Virus record (IMG/VR): IMGVR_UViG_3300044960_000727
Coordinates: 1 to 41,356 of that record
Direction: 5' to 3' (one strand)
Source of the DNA: a virus
Length of the DNA: 41,356 nucleotides
Position numbers and translations under genes: made by a program. The notes beneath the pieces are model-generated. The model was not told where the DNA came from and searched no databases. It saw only the letters and a program-made list of their open reading frames with translations. Below, piece after piece: positions 3,235 through 41,356 of this stretch (the first letter of the stretch is position 1; every line of letters begins with the position of its first letter).

Positions 3235-3237
3235 GTG

Positions 3238-4356
3238 ATGCAAAAAGGCAAGTTTAACATTCTGGTGGACGCGGCCTGGGGTTCGTCGGGCAAAGGAGCT
3301 GTGGCAGCGAGGCTCGCCGACATCTATCGGCCAACAGACTTATCGGCGTCTAACTTCCCCAATGCTGGGCATACGGTCGAAATCGTGGGGCGACGGGTGG
3401 TCTTTAAAGTCCTGCCGTCGGCTGCGGCGCTCATTCTTCGAGACATCCATTATGCGCCGAGGCTCTGGATTGGTCCAAACTCCGGGTTTTGGCTCGACGA
3501 CTTTGTTAAAGAACAGTCTGTACTGCTTTATCCTAAGAATCGCGTGCACGTGCACGCGCGTTCCATCATAATGGACTGTCGACACCGCGACGCCGAGGCA
3601 CCTCATGGTGAGCTATCGGTCGAGCACATCTCGTCGACGATGTCTGGCGCGGGTGCCGCGTTCTCTGAGAAGGCAATGCGGCGACCGGAAGTTCAGACTG
3701 CGGCTCGGGCGGGTATCGCCGACATGCTCTTTCAAGCCCGTTTCGATGAGCGCTTGGCCTCGGGCAAGACCGTGTTACATGAGGTTTCGCAGGGTTACGC
3801 GCTGTCTATTAATCATGGAACTCATTACCCGTACTGCACCTTCCGGGACTGCACTCCGCAACAGGCAATTGCTGACTTCTTGGTCAAACCTCATCAAGTC
3901 GGTGATGTGTACTTGAATGTGCGGACGTTTCCAATCCGAGTCGGGAATAACTTTCGGGATGGGAAACAGACTGGGTACTCGGGTGACTTCTATCCGGACC
4001 AGCAGGAAGTGAACTGGGAAGAGGTTGGTGCGATGGCCGAGATGCCAGCAGAGGAGATAGCAGCGCTGGCTGAGCGCGAACGTACGACTGTGACCCGAAA
4101 AGTTCGGAGAGTCGCGACGCAGTCGTTTCAACTCTGTCGTGAAGCTGCCTTCCGCTGTGGAGCAACGAAGATCGTGCTGAACTTTCCACAGTACATCCAT
4201 TGGTCGGCACATAAACTGCGTGGTGGCCCGGAGATGCGGCAAAAGCTACATCCATTGGTGCGCGCGCACATCGACCGACTTGAGGATTGCACTGGATTGC
4301 CAGTGGTGATGCTGGGAACTGGTGCTGAGCATGAGGATTATATTGTGTTGGAGTGA
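3238..4356 (+). CDS. purZ: PurZ, 2-aminoadenylosuccinate synthetase (Z-genome biosynthesis)
   Basis: A 372-residue member of the adenylosuccinate synthetase family, shorter than cellular PurA (about 430). PurA joins aspartate to IMP; phage PurZ joins aspartate to dGMP, giving the precursor of 2-amino-dAMP (base Z). Near the N-terminus (residues 14-21) the P-loop reads WGSSGKGA where PurA has WGDEGKGK. Loss of the catalytic Asp to Ser is the published hallmark of PurZ and makes room for the 2-amino group. NAGHT, carrying the conserved active-site His, and the VLPS motif are kept. AAAGGAG at 3223-3229 precedes tandem GTG/ATG codons; ATG at 3238 has the better spacing. It is followed 8 nt later by a MazZ-like gene. 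The substrate is inferred from this signature, not measured. Confidence 0.92.
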   Translation: MQKGKFNILVDAAWGSSGKGAVAARLADIYRPTDLSASNFPNAGHTVEIVGRRVVFKVLPSAAALILRDIHYAPRLWIGPNSGFWLDDFVKEQSVLLYPKNRVHVHARSIIMDCRHRDAEAPHGELSVEHISSTMSGAGAAFSEKAMRRPEVQTAARAGIADMLFQARFDERLASGKTVLHEVSQGYALSINHGTHYPYCTFRDCTPQQAIADFLVKPHQVGDVYLNVRTFPIRVGNNFRDGKQTGYSGDFYPDQQEVNWEEVGAMAEMPAEEIAALAERERTTVTRKVRRVATQSFQLCREAAFRCGATKIVLNFPQYIHWSAHKLRGGPEMRQKLHPLVRAHIDRLEDCTGLPVVMLGTGAEHEDYIVLE

Positions 4357-4363
4357 AAAACCG

Positions 4364-4795
4364 ATGAAAAACAAAAAATCGCGGCGTCTGCCGTCTAAGA
4401 CAGGTTCAGATAATAGTAATCGTTGCGGCAGCGGTCGGGTAAGAGCTGGAAGTATCTCGGTGTCTGAGACTGATCCCAATGGGAAGTCACAACATGAGCC
4501 TGGGGCAAAACTCGATGCTGGGAAGGTGCGTCCTGGACTCATTATGTTGTCGATGCCAAGAGCGATGCTCGCCATCTCTCAAGTGGCGACTTATGGTGCA
4601 AAGAAGTATTCAGAGGATGGCTGGCTTCAAGTACCTGACGGTGAGAAGCGCTACACCGACGCGATGCTCAGGCACCATTTGGCTGAGGGTTACGAGTTTG
4701 TGGACGAACCCTCGGGACTTTTGCATGCGGCGCAAGTCGCCTGGAATGCGATGGCTCGGCTTGAACTGATGCTGCGCCGGAAAGAATCCGAGTGA
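4364..4795 (+). CDS. mazZ: MazZ-like dATP/dGTP pyrophosphohydrolase
   Basis: A 143-residue protein whose region 48-137 matches the dATP/dGTP diphosphohydrolase N-terminal family (formerly DUF5664): K-D-GK-RP, GAKKY, W, RY..A..RH, E.GLLHAAQVAWN. In Z-genome phages MazZ removes pyrophosphate from dGTP to supply dGMP for PurZ and can lower dATP. The first 45 residues are polar, low complexity and probably disordered. It starts 8 nt after purZ, with GGAG at the end of purZ serving as ribosome binding site, and ends in a GTGA overlap with the resolvase gene. The adjacency to purZ supports the assignment; the exact preferred nucleotide cannot be read from sequence. Confidence 0.82.
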   Translation: MKNKKSRRLPSKTGSDNSNRCGSGRVRAGSISVSETDPNGKSQHEPGAKLDAGKVRPGLIMLSMPRAMLAISQVATYGAKKYSEDGWLQVPDGEKRYTDAMLRHHLAEGYEFVDEPSGLLHAAQVAWNAMARLELMLRRKESE

Positions 4796-30555: not shown

Positions 30556-30754
30556 CGCCTGTGTCCATGCACCAGACACACTCGACCAAGGAAAAGTTTA
30601 TATAAGCTTTCCTGATCGTGGTGGTCTGGTGCGTGAACAAGCAAAAGAGTTAATTCCGTATGAGAAGTCGCACGGGTATTATTGTATTTCTCCAGAAGAT
30701 TTAGAACTGTTTTTAATTGAGTGGGAGCACTCACAGCAAATTGATAGGGAGTAG
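30503..30754 (+). CDS. Lipoprotein, o-spanin (Rz1-like) candidate
   Basis: An 83-residue protein, GTG start. Residues 5-19 (ISKLFWPSLVVAVSA) form a signal ending in the lipobox AVSAC, so Cys20 should be lipidated and the protein placed in an outer membrane. The mature part includes YISFPDRGGLVREQAKELI and YYCISPEDLELFL. The overlap with the small membrane gene at 30373 resembles Rz/Rz1. It is the best evidence for a Gram-negative host. Confidence 0.7.
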   Translation: MTRVISKLFWPSLVVAVSACVHAPDTLDQGKVYISFPDRGGLVREQAKELIPYEKSHGYYCISPEDLELFLIEWEHSQQIDRE

Positions 30755-30755
30755 C

Positions 30756-31949
30756 ATGCACAAATATTTTGCTGTAATGGCAATGATTTGGTCTTCTGTC
30801 GTGATGGCTGATGGACCATCAGTGCAGTCGCTATCAAAAGAAGAGGTTGAAGCGACACGCGGATTACAGACGAACGACTGGACATTTGAACTCGCACCAA
30901 AATCGCAACGTTACTACTTGGGACTTAAAAAGGACGAATCTCGCCAAGCAGTGCCTGCGAGCCGTCGATTTCTCGAAGCTGACATCAAAGTTCCAGGAAA
31001 ATTTCACCTTAAAGAATTAGCCTCGCTGACAGGCATTTTTGACCAAGGTTCTTGTGGTTCCTGCGTTTACAATTCGGTGATGAAGAACGCATCGGACCAT
31101 TACCGGCTTCGTGGTATTCCGCTCGAATTGCTCTCGCGGCAACACAGCATGGATTGCATGGCCGAATGGAGCTGTTCAGGCTCGTTTTTCTCAAAAGTCG
31201 CAGGAGGACTTGTTAGGAATGGTGGCGCGGCGTATGAGACCGAGTACCCGTACCGAGCGCGTGACCAGCGATGCCTAGGTTTCAATGGTGTACTAAAAGG
31301 TAAATTTGAGAAATACGAAATCATTGATGGATCTGCGGAGTCTATTGCTAAAGCTCTCGTCAAAAGATATCCAGTTTCGGTGACGGTTGCCGCTGACCGA
31401 ACTTGGTCGGGCTACAGTACAGGCATCTACAACGGCTGCTCCTCGATGAGTACTAATCATCAAGTGCTCATCTACGGGTACGACTGTGAAACGTCGGTCG
31501 ACGAACAAGGCAACTGCGTCTTCGTGAACGGTTACCCAAAAAACGGCGATGGTTATGCTATTGTCGTAAATTCCTGGGGTACTCGCTGGGGCATGAATGG
31601 CGAAATGAAGTCGCGATGGCGCGGACGTTCGGGCCAAAAATGTAATAACCTCGCTGAGGAAGCGGGTATTCTAGTAGGCGGCGCGCCGGATGTCACTCCA
31701 GTCGATGGCGGTTGGTCGCCGTGGTCCGACTGGAGCGAATGCCAAGGTGGTTTCCAGTATCGTGAGCGCACGTGCACCAATCCCGCACCGTCGGATGGCG
31801 GAAAACCGTGCACGGGCCCTGCGCAGGAAACGCGGGCGTGCACTCCACCGAGTCCTGATGGTGGCATGCCATGGTGGGGTTGGGTTATTATTATTATTAT
31901 GTCCGTGGGACTCGTAATTGCCTTCTTACTTGGTCGTCGATCGAAGTAA
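30756..31949 (+). CDS. Secreted papain-like (C1A) protease with TSP1 domain and membrane anchor
   Basis: A 397-residue modular protein. Residues 1-18 are a signal peptide. The C1A peptidase domain starts near 80: DQGSCGSC carries Gln97 (oxyanion) and Cys103 (nucleophile), NHQVLIYGYD carries His235, and VNSWGTRWGMNGE carries Asn272; all equal papain's active-site residues. Residues about 319-364 form a thrombospondin type-1 domain (WSPWSDWSEC, YRERTC, TRACTPP). Residues 374-392 are a transmembrane segment ending in RRSK. Predicted to be exported and anchored with the protease outside the inner membrane. AGGGAG supports ATG 30756 over an in-frame start at 30717. This combination is eukaryote-like and unusual for a phage; it may serve lysis, surface proteolysis or an interaction beyond the host. 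Confidence 0.9.
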   Translation: MHKYFAVMAMIWSSVVMADGPSVQSLSKEEVEATRGLQTNDWTFELAPKSQRYYLGLKKDESRQAVPASRRFLEADIKVPGKFHLKELASLTGIFDQGSCGSCVYNSVMKNASDHYRLRGIPLELLSRQHSMDCMAEWSCSGSFFSKVAGGLVRNGGAAYETEYPYRARDQRCLGFNGVLKGKFEKYEIIDGSAESIAKALVKRYPVSVTVAADRTWSGYSTGIYNGCSSMSTNHQVLIYGYDCETSVDEQGNCVFVNGYPKNGDGYAIVVNSWGTRWGMNGEMKSRWRGRSGQKCNNLAEEAGILVGGAPDVTPVDGGWSPWSDWSECQGGFQYRERTCTNPAPSDGGKPCTGPAQETRACTPPSPDGGMPWWGWVIIIIMSVGLVIAFLLGRRSK

Positions 31950-32128: not shown

Positions 32129-32335
32129 ATGGACCTCACGCGAGTGCCTGATTCAGACCTCGAATGGGAATTAAAACGACGACAGCTGAGAGCGAAAGCC
32201 GCAAGTCTTCTTGAACAAAAACGGCAAGAAATCAGAGAAGCACAAATCATTATCGACCTGCTTGAACATGCGACCGACGAAAAATTGCAATCGATTCTGT
32301 GGCAGTTTGGAATAAGAGACGATGAATTACGATAA
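32129..32335 (+). CDS. Small coiled-coil protein
   Basis: A 68-residue, highly charged, entirely helical protein (ELKRRQLRAKAASLLEQKRQEIREAQIIIDLLEHA). No domain is recognised. It follows the terminator and overlaps the glycosyltransferase gene by 14 bases, so it is a likely operon partner. No strong ribosome binding site is seen. Confidence 0.55.
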   Translation: MDLTRVPDSDLEWELKRRQLRAKAASLLEQKRQEIREAQIIIDLLEHATDEKLQSILWQFGIRDDELR

Positions 32336-33281
32336 GTTCCATCTGATTACGGTTATCTCTAATCCTTGCAATTACTTGAAGCGGTACGAAAACTATGAAA
32401 AATTCCGCACCGAAATTCCCGACTGGGTAACTCTGTGGACGGTAGAACTCGTTACCGGCGCCAGAACTCCGATGATCACGAAAAAATCGGATAAAGACTG
32501 GCACATCACGTTATACCAATCAGCAATTGATGGTGAGCTTTGGCATAAAGAAAATCTCATCAATCTTGCCGTACAATTCGTCGTAGAGCGGTTCCCGGAC
32601 ACCCGATACCTAATGTGGTCCGACTCGGATTTACTCTTTGAACGCGACGCGTTTAATAAAGTCGTTGACCGGTTGCAGATTTGGCCGGTGGTGCAATGTT
32701 GGTCCCATTTGGTGAACATGGGCCCGCAAGGCGAAACTGTAAGCATCTTCAAATCTTTCGTCTATATGCGACAGTCGGATTCGACGCTACCACCAGCACC
32801 AGAATCTTACTCTCGATGGGGTTCACCCGGCGGCGCCTGGGCATTCAGACGCGAGTATCTTAATCAATTCGGTTGTGCGATTTCGGGTCCTATTCTTGAC
32901 TTCTCAATTATCGGTTCTGGTGATACCTATTTTGCAGCAGCGGCATTCGGCGAAATTGAGAGATTCATCAATCCGAAGTTCCATGCCAATTATCAGAAGT
33001 GGCTGCGCCGGTATCAGGTGAACTTGGAACCGGTACTTAAACGAAATGTTGGGTATGTACCCACCACAGTAAGACACTTATTTCATGGCCCATACTCGGC
33101 GCGAGGTTATGATTGGAGAAATCATGTTCTCATCGATCATCAGTTTGATCCGGAAACTGATTTGACGCGGGATGTCTCTGGACTCTGGCGTCTGGTCGTG
33201 CATTCGCCGCGACAGATGGCTATTCGTGACGCTATTCGCGCCTATTTCCGATCTCGTAACGACGACCGAAACACGCTATAA
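32322..33281 (+). CDS. GT-A type glycosyltransferase
   Basis: A 319-residue protein with a GT-A-like fold: an N-terminal FHLITVISNPCNYLKRYENY, a nucleotide-sugar DXD motif in RYLMWSDSDLLFERD (about 97-111), and SPGGAWAFRREYLNQFG with ISGPILDFSIIGSGDTYF typical of acceptor-side motifs. It could sugar-coat virion proteins, modify host surface glycans to exclude other phages, or glycosylate DNA bases. It is the last gene of the rightward arm. Sugar and acceptor are unknown. Confidence 0.78.
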   Translation: MNYDKFHLITVISNPCNYLKRYENYEKFRTEIPDWVTLWTVELVTGARTPMITKKSDKDWHITLYQSAIDGELWHKENLINLAVQFVVERFPDTRYLMWSDSDLLFERDAFNKVVDRLQIWPVVQCWSHLVNMGPQGETVSIFKSFVYMRQSDSTLPPAPESYSRWGSPGGAWAFRREYLNQFGCAISGPILDFSIIGSGDTYFAAAAFGEIERFINPKFHANYQKWLRRYQVNLEPVLKRNVGYVPTTVRHLFHGPYSARGYDWRNHVLIDHQFDPETDLTRDVSGLWRLVVHSPRQMAIRDAIRAYFRSRNDDRNTL

Positions 33282-33623: not shown

Positions 33624-33857
33624 TCACTTTTGAGCCATTGTCTCGGTCTTTTGGTGCTCCCAGAGATCTCGAATACCCTCGCGATTTTCTGGTAATAAAC
33701 CGCTGAGTTCGCAATACAGTGCTCGAAGCTGGTCAATACACGAAACTGACAACAAATTATTGGTGATTACTGAGTGAAGCGCACTCACGCGCTGGCGAAG
33801 TTCGTGAGGCTTCCAATACTTATAGACTAGATTTTCGTTCATCGTGTTCTTTTTCAC
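33624..33857 (-). CDS. Small hypothetical protein
   Basis: A 77-residue helical protein at GTG, overlapping the upstream gene (GTGA), with GGAG 7 nt before. It is charged and without membrane segments (YWKPHELRQRVSALHSVI, DLWEHQKTETM). No family is recognised. Coupled translation with the deoxyribosyltransferase-like gene suggests co-expression only. Confidence 0.55.
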   Translation of the reverse strand: MKKNTMNENLVYKYWKPHELRQRVSALHSVITNNLLSVSCIDQLRALYCELSGLLPENREGIRDLWEHQKTETMAQK

Positions 33858-34300
33858 TCACTTGCTCCATCAGACTTCAAACACGCCACCAGCGCCCGAA
33901 CTAGTTCATCGGCACTATCTGCTAGGACGCCATTACCACGAAAGGCGCGCTCTCGAATATAAAGCCCCAATGGTTTTCTAGTTCGGTTCCAAACAAAGAA
34001 ACGCCTTTGCCATTGTACTGCTAAATCGATTTCGACAGGAACTCCAAAGGAAGGAGAACCGTTCCAGACGAAGACTGCGGCGTCGCAATTCCGAAGCGCG
34101 AAGTTATTAATTTCCACCACGAATCGAAGTTCATCGAAAGTTTTCGCGTTTTCTGCATTAAGAAATGCGGCAAATGGATTGTAACAAACCGTCGACTCGC
34201 CGAGCGCGCCCACCACAAGTCCGGCCAAGTTCCGCATCTGTTGTTCTGGCGTTTCTTCGACGTTCGAGTGATCAATTGGACAGCCAAGGTAGACTTTCAT
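33854..34300 (-). CDS. Nucleoside 2-deoxyribosyltransferase-like protein
   Basis: A 148-residue protein with the fold signature of nucleoside 2-deoxyribosyltransferases and related deoxynucleotide N-hydrolases: VYLGCPID at the N-terminus, NCDAAVFVWNG with Asp73, then GVPVEIDLAVQ with Glu90 as probable nucleophile. Family members swap or remove bases on deoxyribose. In a phage predicted to replace adenine by 2-aminoadenine it may remodel the nucleotide pool, but that link is inference. It lies in the leftward replication arm between the methyltransferase and two small genes. Confidence 0.7.
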   Translation of the reverse strand: MKVYLGCPIDHSNVEETPEQQMRNLAGLVVGALGESTVCYNPFAAFLNAENAKTFDELRFVVEINNFALRNCDAAVFVWNGSPSFGVPVEIDLAVQWQRRFFVWNRTRKPLGLYIRERAFRGNGVLADSADELVRALVACLKSDGASE

Positions 34301-34324: not shown

Positions 34325-35440
34325 TCAGCCATCACCTTTATCCCCACTGCCACCTATACCATAAGCGGTTATGATGAGTGGCCGATGCACTGAAATGATG
34401 CCTCGGTGGTCAATGCTAAAATCCGGAGGGCCCAGTCTTTCTGGGCATAATTCATCGTTGCAGTCCAAACCGAAATTCATGGGTAGTTCACCGGACGTAT
34501 TGTTCGAAGCCTCAATACGTCGAGATGCCATATCGGCATATTCTGGATTGAGTTCAATCCCGATGTAACGGCGATTGTGTCTTGCGGCAACCTGGCCGGT
34601 GGTACCAGCACCAAAGAATGGATCGAGCACGATACCATCTGTTGGTGAACCCGCAAGGACGCATGGCTCAATAAGGTCCGGCGGGAACGTGGCGAAATGC
34701 GCGCCCTTGAAGCTCTTGGTGGACACGGTCCACACCGATCGCTTGTTGCGTCCCTCCGCAGCCTTTTTCTCCGCTTCATCGGTGCCATTGTATCGATGAA
34801 AATTATTCTGCACTCCACCAGGAAAACCGCGCGCCCGGTTACCGTTCCATTTACGAGTCAATCTTCTCGCGCTCACTGGCTTGAATGGCTCTCTCACCGC
34901 TTGGGCGTCGTAGTAATATTTTGCCGACTTCGCGAGCAGGAAGATGTACTCGTGCGCTTTCGTTGGGCGGTCTCGGACCGATTCTGGCATGGCGTTTGGC
35001 TTGTGCCAAATGATGTCACTGCGCAGGTACCAGCCGTCGGCGCGGAGTGCGAAGGCGACAAGCCACGGAATGCCGACCAAGTCTTTGGGTTTCAAATAGG
35101 CCACGTTTCGCGATGGCATGAAAACCGATCCGCGAACACTCTTTTGTTTCTCTCCAGCTTTATCATTAGCCTTTCGCTTTCCGGGACGAGAATTGAAGCT
35201 ATCCCCAAGATTGAGCCACAGCGTCCCATCATCCCGAAGTACGCGCCGCACCTCTCGGAACACTTCGACGAGTTTTGCGATGTATTCCTCGGGCGTTTTC
35301 TCAAGCCCAAGCTGTCCAGGAATGCCATAGTCGCGAAGGCCCCAGTAAGGTGGTGAGGTTACGCAGGTATGCACTGATTTTGCTGGAAACGTTCGTAAAA
35401 TGTCGAGCGCATCACCAACAAAGATGCGGCTTTCCATCAT
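34325..35440 (-). CDS. Site-specific DNA methyltransferase (N4-C or N6-A type)
   Basis: A 371-residue beta-class amino-methyltransferase: catalytic TSPPYW at 28-33 precedes the SAM-binding DPFFGAGTTG at 273-282, followed by YIGIELNPEYAD. Between them are a target-recognition region and HKPNAMPESVRDRPTKAHEYIFLL, typical of SPPY enzymes. SPPY fits N4-cytosine or N6-adenine modification. No partner endonuclease is nearby, so it is probably a stand-alone enzyme protecting phage DNA. The C-terminal extension after 300 is of unknown role. The second ATG (35437) may be the true start. Confidence 0.9.
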   Translation of the reverse strand: MMESRIFVGDALDILRTFPAKSVHTCVTSPPYWGLRDYGIPGQLGLEKTPEEYIAKLVEVFREVRRVLRDDGTLWLNLGDSFNSRPGKRKANDKAGEKQKSVRGSVFMPSRNVAYLKPKDLVGIPWLVAFALRADGWYLRSDIIWHKPNAMPESVRDRPTKAHEYIFLLAKSAKYYYDAQAVREPFKPVSARRLTRKWNGNRARGFPGGVQNNFHRYNGTDEAEKKAAEGRNKRSVWTVSTKSFKGAHFATFPPDLIEPCVLAGSPTDGIVLDPFFGAGTTGQVAARHNRRYIGIELNPEYADMASRRIEASNNTSGELPMNFGLDCNDELCPERLGPPDFSIDHRGIISVHRPLIITAYGIGGSGDKGDG

Positions 35441-35504: not shown

Positions 35505-37562
35505 TTACTTCCGATACCTCATGGCCTGATAACCTTTAGCTTCGATGATTAATCCTTCATCCGCCCACTGTGGGCGCTGGCAGAGAATCGCGTTGAATTC
35601 ATCAATGGAACCCTGTCCGCACTCTTTTTCGCCTACAATTTCATCATGGACAGAAAACAATATCCAATAACCCCGCCGACGAAGCTCTAAACAAGCATTC
35701 ACCATAATGTCTCGTGAGATACCTTGAACCGCATTTTCCATCAAGACTCCGCCCCAGGAACGCTCCAGGTTCCATTTCTTGGTCTTTGGATTAACCGCCC
35801 AATACTCAAGCTGCGGTTGTTCTTCTCCCCAAGAATTAATCTTGGTGGTAATACGCGGTTCACGATAAGCAATGCGCCGCTTTGATGGCAACTCCAGCCA
35901 TAGAAATCGATTCTCATAAATGAACGCACCATGTGGGAAGCGTACCCGCCGACCGGGTTCCAACACGGCTTCGATGGCGGCTTGCTCGATAGCGCGCCAG
36001 AACGCAGGCACCGCTGGAAATGTTTCTCGGTATTGCCTCACCGCAGCTTTCGATTGGTCATCTGATAGATGCAGGCGATGCAATTCAATTCCGGTACGTT
36101 GGAACTTTTCCCATCCCATGCCGTACTGACAACCCAGGATTTGATGCTTTGCCAGCTGCCGTTCGTGGCTATCATCATCAATCTGTTCGTAGGGAATACC
36201 CGAATTTATTGATGCGAGACGCTTATAGGGATCACCACCCAACCGCAGGATTTCGATACCTGGCCGATTTTCAGCAAGCCACCAACCGACCGCGACTTCA
36301 ATCTTCGAAAAATCGGATACAAACAGTTCGTGGCCATCAGTCGGAATTATCATGTTGCGAAGAATTGAGGAAAATAGCATCCCCAAATTTTCACCGTAGA
36401 GCAGTCGCAACATGTCGACGTCGAGATCACGCACATTCTCAACTGCCGCATATGGTTGACTCTTATCAATCGGAATTACTGGTCGAGGAAAGTTTTGGAT
36501 TTGGACGCCAGTACCAGAATCTCTCCCAGTAGACGCACCATGATACATTTGAATGTCGCGTACTCGCCAGTCTCTAGGGTCGGTACGGTCAATAAACGCC
36601 TTGTATTTCTTGGTCGAAGTCTTAGACAACAACTGTCGTAGCTCAAGAAGTCGGCGTCCTACTGGCGTAAGCTTACCTGATTCCAGCGCATCCTGCACAG
36701 TGTTGGCCCGGATATCCTGCAGTTCAATGCCTTCCATGCGCAAAAAATCAATGATGGCGGATCGAGCCGCAGGCCGAGTTACGAGTCCCATGGTGAGTTC
36801 ATCCAACTCATGCAATGATTGCTTTTCCTCACCAGCCATTATCTCCACAATTTTGTGAATAAGTGGCAAATCGACGCGGAAACCGCGAAAATTCATCTCC
36901 TGGTTGAGACGCCATACTTCGAGTTCCGCCGTGGTAAGATCAGGCAACGTGCGGTCCACCAGTTCTTCGGTAAGCACGTCTCTTTTACAATAGTGATAAA
37001 GCTGCTCAAACACCTCCGGATGACTGTCGGGTTCAATGAATAACCTAGGTTCCTGGCCTTTTGGTTTTCGTTGCCACGCGGTCCACTCACGAGATGGTCG
37101 ACAAGTGCGCATCATCGCAATCGCACCGCTGCGGTCTTTTTGAATTGTAAGCTTTAATACTTCACCGACGCCTTCGAGAGAACGAGGCAGCGCGACAGCT
37201 GCGGCTCGGGCCGCAGTACAACGCCATTGTAACGGATGAATCTCGGGCCATCCAAGTCTGCGCACCAAAATATTCTCATAGATAGCGCGCTCGAAGCCTG
37301 CATTGTGAGCGACGATAACCCAATCTTCGAGATGGGAATCCCAGTCACCTAAACATCGAAGCCAATCATGCCTTACTGCGGAGGGGAGATCCTTCCAGTG
37401 AAGATTGCAACGCTCGAATGGAAGTAAATGGACTTCTTCTTCGTCTTCTCGTTTCCAGGCCATGCAAGTAAGCCGCGTGGTCGGATGCAGCGAGTAGATA
37501 TAAGGACCAGTCTTCTTCAAATCAACGACTGAACGGGTTTCGAAGTCGAGAACTGTTCTCAC
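35505..37562 (-). CDS. Family A DNA polymerase with 3'-5' exonuclease (DpoZ candidate)
   Basis: A 685-residue polymerase. Exonuclease motifs: LDFETRS (Asp6, Glu8), IVAHNAGFE, and YHYCKRDVLTEE. Polymerase motifs: A, VSDFSKIEVA with Asp417; B, KHQILGCQYGMGWEKF; C, FSVHDEIV with His639-Asp640-Glu641. It copies the genome and should accept dZTP. Known Z-phages encode a family A polymerase (DpoZ) that discriminates against A; residues responsible cannot be read here, so the name is not assigned. GTG start; an intrinsic terminator lies upstream. Confidence 0.93.
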   Translation of the reverse strand: MRTVLDFETRSVVDLKKTGPYIYSLHPTTRLTCMAWKREDEEEVHLLPFERCNLHWKDLPSAVRHDWLRCLGDWDSHLEDWVIVAHNAGFERAIYENILVRRLGWPEIHPLQWRCTAARAAAVALPRSLEGVGEVLKLTIQKDRSGAIAMMRTCRPSREWTAWQRKPKGQEPRLFIEPDSHPEVFEQLYHYCKRDVLTEELVDRTLPDLTTAELEVWRLNQEMNFRGFRVDLPLIHKIVEIMAGEEKQSLHELDELTMGLVTRPAARSAIIDFLRMEGIELQDIRANTVQDALESGKLTPVGRRLLELRQLLSKTSTKKYKAFIDRTDPRDWRVRDIQMYHGASTGRDSGTGVQIQNFPRPVIPIDKSQPYAAVENVRDLDVDMLRLLYGENLGMLFSSILRNMIIPTDGHELFVSDFSKIEVAVGWWLAENRPGIEILRLGGDPYKRLASINSGIPYEQIDDDSHERQLAKHQILGCQYGMGWEKFQRTGIELHRLHLSDDQSKAAVRQYRETFPAVPAFWRAIEQAAIEAVLEPGRRVRFPHGAFIYENRFLWLELPSKRRIAYREPRITTKINSWGEEQPQLEYWAVNPKTKKWNLERSWGGVLMENAVQGISRDIMVNACLELRRRGYWILFSVHDEIVGEKECGQGSIDEFNAILCQRPQWADEGLIIEAKGYQAMRYRK

Positions 37563-41229: not shown

Positions 41230-41356
41230 CCGTTTTTGCCGTTTTTGCCGTTTTTGCCGTTTTTGCCGTTTTTGCCGTTTTTGCCGTTTTTGCCGTTTTT
41301 GCCGTTTTTGCCGTTTTTGCCGTTTTTGCCGTTTTTGCCGTTTTTGCCGTTTTTGC
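41230..41356. repeat. Right terminal tandem array of the same 9-bp unit
   Basis: Fourteen perfect copies of CCGTTTTTG plus one extra C run to the window edge. Phase, orientation and sequence match the left array. The trailing C does not join in register to the leading CC, so the window ends are arbitrary cuts inside the array and not a clean overlap. The likely explanation is a circular or circularly permuted map, or a terminally repeated molecule, with an array longer than the assembler could resolve; the true copy number is unknown. Confidence 0.95.

Follow-up and report, generated by a model that had tools for sequence, protein, structure and literature searches.

Some phages substitute 2-aminoadenine (Z) for adenine in their DNA, and PurZ is the synthetase of that pathway. 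A purZ-like gene at positions 3238-4356 of IMG/VR record IMGVR_UViG_3300044960_000727, together with its immediate neighbour at 4364-4795, raises the question of whether this uncultured phage makes Z-containing DNA and, if it does, with which enzymes. The window analysed was the whole virus record of 41,356 bp (49.8% G+C). Relatives were collected by scanning IMG/VR with a PurZ alignment and are labelled L0xx for loci and G0xx for genomes.

Genome organization

Perfect tandem repeats of one 9-bp unit, CCGTTTTTG, make up both ends of the contig: 11.9 copies fill 1-107, and 14.1 copies fill 41230-41356. The two ends belong to one array; the genome map is thus probably circular and the contig cut within the array, which suggests that the record is a nearly complete genome. 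The array sits between divergent replication operons and may be the replication origin. Rightward from it runs an early block encoding PrimPol-VapE, PurZ, a DUF5664 protein and a RuvC-like protein, and leftward a replication block encoding an SNF2-type helicase, a nuclease, SSB, a DNA polymerase (PolA), a methyltransferase and a DmtZ-like protein. Over its helicase half, the PrimPol-VapE primase-helicase (628-2880, + strand) shares 38% identity with its S-2L counterpart and 39% with the protein adjoining purZ in locus L031.

The structural module, comprising terminases, portal, MuF-like protein, capsid, tail sheath, tape measure and baseplate, is of the contractile-tailed phage type. On the + strand, 30717-31949 encodes a 410-aa protein in which a papain-family cysteine protease (E 1e-30) is combined with a thrombospondin type 1 domain; the combination is unusual in a phage, and the protein fell into no PHROG and matched nothing among 50,697 phage records. 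The 319-aa product of 32322-33281 (+ strand) matched neither Pfam nor PHROG.

The purZ-like gene

The 372-aa product of 3238-4356 (+ strand) begins at an ATG (3238) that follows AAAGGAG, a GTG at 3235 also being possible. The first-pass annotation had recognised an adenylosuccinate synthetase homologue in which GSSGKGA stands in place of the GDEGKGK loop of E. coli PurA, and this was borne out by Pfam (PF00709, E 1.8e-19), by PHROG 1211, '2-aminooxy adenylosuccinate synthetase' (E 1.3e-45), and by the PDB, where the top matches, at E ~2e-33 and above every PurA, were the PurZ proteins of S-2L (7odx) and phiVC8 (6fm1). At the level of sequence, these matches to the PurZ family are far beyond chance. 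The curated PurZ model NF038379 was the best NCBIfam model of the protein, which scored 180.6 bits, under the cut-off of 300; on the same model phiVC8 scored 397, TattModd 363, S-2L 350, OchOH 241 and Bacillus phage 140 211 bits. Because OchOH, with a Z-cluster that includes DatZ and MazZ matches, also falls under the cut-off, the score does not exclude function.

Ser16 of the protein lies at the position of the catalytic Asp13 of PurA; Ser was found here in all 78 PurZ-like sequences compared, as against Asp in PurA. The dGMP-pocket residues of S-2L PurZ are kept (G22, S23, N49, A50, T132, Q190, R240 and V241 in S-2L numbering), with roles named in PMC8342488, where V241 is described as hindering the ribose 2'-OH. 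The sole base-pocket difference from S-2L PurZ is Trp for Tyr21, a backbone contact. The ATP-base residues of S-2L (N305, F306 and Q308) are also retained, PurA and PurZ0 having Asp at 308; in the present protein the corresponding motif, NF-P-Q at 315-318, is of the NFxQ type that reads the adenine of ATP. Further marks are PIRV at 232-235, followed by a PurZ-type insertion, and the aspartate loop TTVT, which in PurA reads GTVT or GATT. With all diagnostic PurZ residues thus conserved, selection seems to be acting on the enzyme.

Phylogenies were built from 81 sequences with FastTree (SH-like support) and from 50 taxa with IQ-TREE (ultrafast bootstrap). The check proposed in the first-pass annotation, a PurZ/PurA phylogeny, placed the protein outside cellular PurA: it clustered with PurZ, apart from PurZ0, Pyrococcus PurA and bacterial PurA (bootstrap 100; SH-like 0.91). 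Within PurZ it formed a tight group with L020, L021 and L022 (bootstrap 100), and a wider, less certain one (bootstrap 71 in IQ-TREE, 0.997 in FastTree) that includes Flavobacterium phage MaF61 and contigs of up to 436 kb. Identity to the PurZ proteins of named phages was 29-37%, and to close relatives, found in uncultured phages, 39-58%. Assignment of the gene product as a PurZ-type succino-2-aminodeoxyadenylate synthetase is therefore well supported, and, as judged from its sequence, this divergent lineage is a new branch of PurZ.

The DUF5664 neighbour

The gene that follows (4364-4795, + strand) encodes a stand-alone, 143-aa protein with the domain PF18909, 'dATP/dGTP diphosphohydrolase, N-terminal' (DUF5664), at E 1.7e-23 and 82.9 bits against a cut-off of 27. 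Its ATG at 4364 lies 7 nt behind purZ, so that the close adjacency reported earlier stands with one nucleotide less than the 8 stated, and the two genes presumably form one operon. The same annotation had called the product MazZ-like. The family was right, and the MazZ identity was rejected because the DUF550/MazG catalytic half is absent and DUF5664 stands alone. The product is a probable dATP/dGTP diphosphohydrolase, and it could still do a MazZ-like job, since the stand-alone DUF5664 protein of Arthrobacter phage Wayne hydrolyses dATP, which it prefers, and dGTP (PMC12884076).

DUF5664 proteins matched 702 phage records and are common in phages without purZ. The closest phage homologues of the present protein, at about 50% identity, come from Vibrio and Curvibacter phages, none of which is among the purZ matches listed, and for this reason DUF5664 by itself is weak evidence for Z. 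Its value as such evidence is in its position behind purZ and in the precedent of the Wayne enzyme. DUF5664 lies directly behind purZ in separate lineages, namely this phage, TattModd (a PurZ0 phage) and L042, and a fusion of DUF5664 to DUF550 lies right behind purZ in SH-Ab 15497 and PMBT28.

A DmtZ-like gene in the replication block

DmtZ is a base-swapping enzyme known up to now chiefly from phages of actinobacteria. A candidate DmtZ-like gene, absent from the first-pass annotation, is located at 33854-34300 (- strand) in the replication block, just after an N6_N4 DNA methyltransferase gene with a TSPPY motif (34325-35440, - strand); the target base of the methyltransferase may be cytosine, adenine or Z, and its presence leaves the question of Z-DNA unsettled. 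In the PurZ0 phages from which it was described, DmtZ makes dZMP from dAMP and free Z base (PMC12884076). The generic nucleoside deoxyribosyltransferase (NDT) model PF05014 scored 21 bits on the 148-aa product, under its cut-off. An HMM built from four DmtZ proteins of PurZ0 phages only detected it at E 1.3e-9 and 38 bits among some 20,000 ORFs, and gave about 20 bits to the generic deoxyribosyltransferases of large relatives.

Tyr4, Asp10, Pro42, Asn65 and Glu90 of this protein align with Tyr6, Asp12, Pro57, Asn77 and Glu103 of DmtZ, of which Tyr6, Asn77 and Glu103 are the published triad and Asp12 and Pro57 further published residues (PMC12884076). The columns invariant over the DmtZ set are, in the numbering of the present protein, Tyr4, Asp10, Pro42, Ala45, Asn65, Gly86 and Glu90. 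No Trp aligns with the Trp124 lid of DmtZ, a residue that G002 and Bacillus phage 140 lack too, and identity to other DmtZ members is only 21-28%. The NDTs of Erebus and vir520, phages without purZ, have Asp at the equivalent of Asn65 and no equivalent of Asp10/Asp12, and among the phages checked the Asp10/Asn65 signature occurs solely in PurZ phages.

A tblastn search of the 50,697 phage records with this protein gave two matches at E <1, both of them DmtZ-DutZ genes of Arthrobacter PurZ0 phages. The homologue in G002 matched ten records, eight of them PurZ phages (Bacillus phage 140 and seven Arthrobacter phages), and that of Bacillus phage 140 matched only itself and Streptomyces phage Hiyaa; the DmtZ of TattModd matched Arthrobacter, Gordonia and Streptomyces phages and five marginal Listeria records. 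The predicted fold (pLDDT 76, from a three-sequence alignment) resembles deoxyribosyltransferases, DNPH1 and CMP glycosidases. We therefore describe the predicted product as DmtZ-like, that is, a deoxyribosyltransferase-like protein with the DmtZ signature, and regard its gene as the best independent support for a Z pathway in this phage.

Absent parts and the DNA polymerase

The canonical Z-cluster is purZ-mazZ-datZ, in which DatZ is a YfbR-like dATP triphosphohydrolase. Local HMM searches of the whole 41,356-bp record gave no match for DatZ, as did a search with PF12917 at E up to 1, and no dUTPase-like match for DutZ; neither the MazZ-1 catalytic half (DUF550) nor MazZ-2 was found in the record, where the DUF5664 part alone matches the MazZ-1 model.

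The family A polymerase (35505-37562, - strand) is, by profile scores and residues, of the Donnerlittchen/PaMx28 kind. It is about 36% identical at full length to the polymerases of Bradleyvirinae such as Janthinobacterium phage Donnerlittchen, a phage unlike the present one in that a search of it for purZ found none. On the NCBIfam models, it scored 20.6 bits for DpoZ_1 against a cut-off of 500 and did not match DpoZ_2, the controls passing at 939 and 1193 bits. The hallmark of DpoZ is a Phe replacing the steric-gate Tyr in helix O (PMC8599892), and the present enzyme keeps the Tyr (CQYGMG). By these scores and this residue it is not DpoZ. Elsewhere the position is Phe in the polymerases of PurZ0 phages and of most classical PurZ phages, and Tyr in L080. 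Six OchOH-like purZ phages (L007, L054, L078, L085, L096 and L097) have Ser, Asn or Thr at this gate, and the published Phe hallmark may not be valid for all.

The first-pass annotation had inferred that A in this genome is largely Z. A largely Z genome is plausible and unproven, and the statement goes beyond the evidence because DatZ, MazZ, DutZ and DpoZ were not found.

Relatives of the PurZ branch

The related PurZ branch (L020-L041, L045 and others) is found in uncultured phages, many of them of 100-436 kb. When PurZ, the NDT-like protein or PolA was used as a single query against IMG/VR, there were no matches, and the G002 DmtZ-like protein as a single query matched itself only; the PurZ of G002 is about 54% identical to the present one. 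Only seven matches came from a scan of cellular genomes; every one lay in a metagenome-assembled bin, and the contigs concerned may be viral.

Within 10 kb of purZ, the DatZ and MazZ models matched at none of the 21 loci in the wider group of this phage; the comparison loci had DatZ at 16 of 23, MazZ-1/DUF550 at 14 of 23 and MazZ-2 at 5 of 23. Four of the largest relatives (G004, G006, G008 and G019) carry YfbR-like (DatZ-family) genes far from purZ, several relatives carry dUTPases, which in G002 adjoin the DmtZ-like gene, and some large relatives carry generic NDT genes. This distribution of YfbR-like genes and dUTPases indicates that pool-control genes vary around a shared PurZ, and the notion of 'functional convergence' of pool-control genes (PMC12884076) fits these relatives. 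A dUTPase-like gene, as a DutZ candidate, was also seen close behind purZ-type genes other than PurZ0 in L031 (4185-4946), L032, L041 and L042, the order in L042 being purZ, DUF5664, dUTPase.

A proposed route to Z-DNA

On balance we think it probable that Z nucleotide is produced during infection and built into the DNA of the phage by means of PurZ, the DUF5664 protein, the DmtZ-like protein and control of the nucleotide pool. The DUF5664 enzyme (4364-4795) would cleave dGTP to dGMP and dATP to dAMP. PurZ (3238-4356) would then join dGMP to aspartate, with ATP or dATP, to give N6-succino-2-amino-dAMP, which host PurB and nucleotide kinases would carry on to dZTP. The DmtZ-like enzyme would either destroy dAMP, with release of adenine, or transfer its deoxyribose-phosphate to free Z base and so yield more dZMP. 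Finally PolA, aided by PrimPol and having no preference for Z, would incorporate Z because dATP is drained and dZTP raised, as in S-2L, where pool control operates with a non-selective polymerase (PMC8342488, PMC8065100). The best reading is thus that Z enters the DNA by pool control and not by polymerase choice. That the enzymes act in these ways, and that the DNA contains Z, we infer from what was observed of gene identities, residues, phylogeny and absent parts.

A broader proposal, which we put forward tentatively and would not press, is that a PurZ-type enzyme, a stand-alone DUF5664 protein and a DmtZ-like protein, with no DatZ, MazZ, DutZ or Z-selective polymerase, make up a third route to Z-DNA. 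Since the same PurZ branch occurs in large uncultured phages, it would extend to Z-DNA in jumbo phages.

The serious rival is a mixed A/Z genome, in which PurZ is active but weak removal of dATP and an unselective polymerase leave part of the adenine in place. We judge this unlikely, and weigh it because the phage lacks DatZ and DpoZ, the most powerful of the known safeguards against A, and because an incomplete Z-cluster in E. coli lowered substitution, the lack of datZ and mazZ being synergistic (PMC8342488). S-2L, however, is fully substituted without DpoZ, and the DUF5664 and DmtZ-like enzymes could replace DatZ and MazZ (PMC12884076).

It is less likely still that the DUF5664 and NDT-like proteins serve a general nucleotide scavenging unrelated to purZ, in which case purZ would be newly acquired or idle and would alter the DNA little. 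The frequency of DUF5664 in phages without purZ, the generic NDT genes of some large relatives, and the distance of some 30 kb, on the opposite strand, between the NDT-like gene and purZ would fit such scavenging, but the repeated purZ-DUF5664 adjacency in separate lineages, the restriction of the Asp10/Asn65 signature to PurZ phages among those checked, and the conserved residues of a PurZ that appears to be under selection argue against it.

The structure predicted for the product of 3238-4356 (pLDDT 94.5) has the adenylosuccinate-synthetase fold, and Foldseek gave the best E-value to Pyrococcus PurA with PurZ close behind; the fold comparison does not separate the two, so that the case for PurZ is made by residues and phylogeny. 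An auxiliary phage PurA, using IMP and GTP to boost adenine synthesis, would share this fold but is already largely refuted and very improbable, PurA identity having been rejected on the change of Asp13 to Ser, the NFxQ motif in place of the GTP-binding Asp, the TTVT loop and the grouping with PurZ at 100.

If the DNA is Z-substituted, the phage would show which steps of the Z pathway can be done without, and that DmtZ also occurs outside PurZ0 phages. Each class of enzyme is known already; what is new is the combination of PurZ-type, DUF5664 and DmtZ-like proteins without DatZ, MazZ, DutZ or DpoZ, together with the occurrence of DmtZ-like genes in phages other than those with PurZ0 and a PurZ branch that extends across large uncultured phages, none of which was found in the literature searched, a body that covered few subscription journals and preprints. 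The PurZ branch of very large uncultured phages is undersampled and leads to the testable prediction of 2-aminoadenine in jumbo-phage genomes, and a set of three enzymes that needs neither DatZ nor DpoZ would aid the production of Z-DNA in bacteria.

Comparison with known systems

The phage shares with the S-2L and phiVC8 Z-cluster (purZ-mazZ-datZ) the PurZ substrate-pocket residues and the ATP-type motif, and with S-2L in particular a PrimPol-VapE protein and the absence of DpoZ. It differs from both in being without DatZ and MazZ, in place of which it has the stand-alone DUF5664 and the DmtZ-like protein, and in a PurZ that is 34-35% identical to theirs. The MazZ of Acinetobacter phage SH-Ab 15497, a DUF5664-DUF550 fusion, likewise places a DUF5664 domain right after purZ, but the DUF550 half is absent from the present protein. 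In Bacillus phage vB_BpsS-140, a PurZ-type enzyme (37% identical) occurs with a DmtZ-like protein of the same signature, and no YfbR/DatZ match was found, whereas its dUTPase lies elsewhere in the genome and the genome organization is different. Compared with the PurZ0/DutZ/DmtZ/DUF5664 system of Wayne (Arthrobacter) and Ghobes (Gordonia) (PMC12884076), the phage has a PurZ-type enzyme and not PurZ0, has neither DutZ nor DpoZ, and carries its DmtZ-like gene within the replication operon, but it resembles that system in the stand-alone DUF5664 close behind purZ (as in Wayne) and in a DmtZ-like protein whose catalytic and specificity residues are those of DmtZ.
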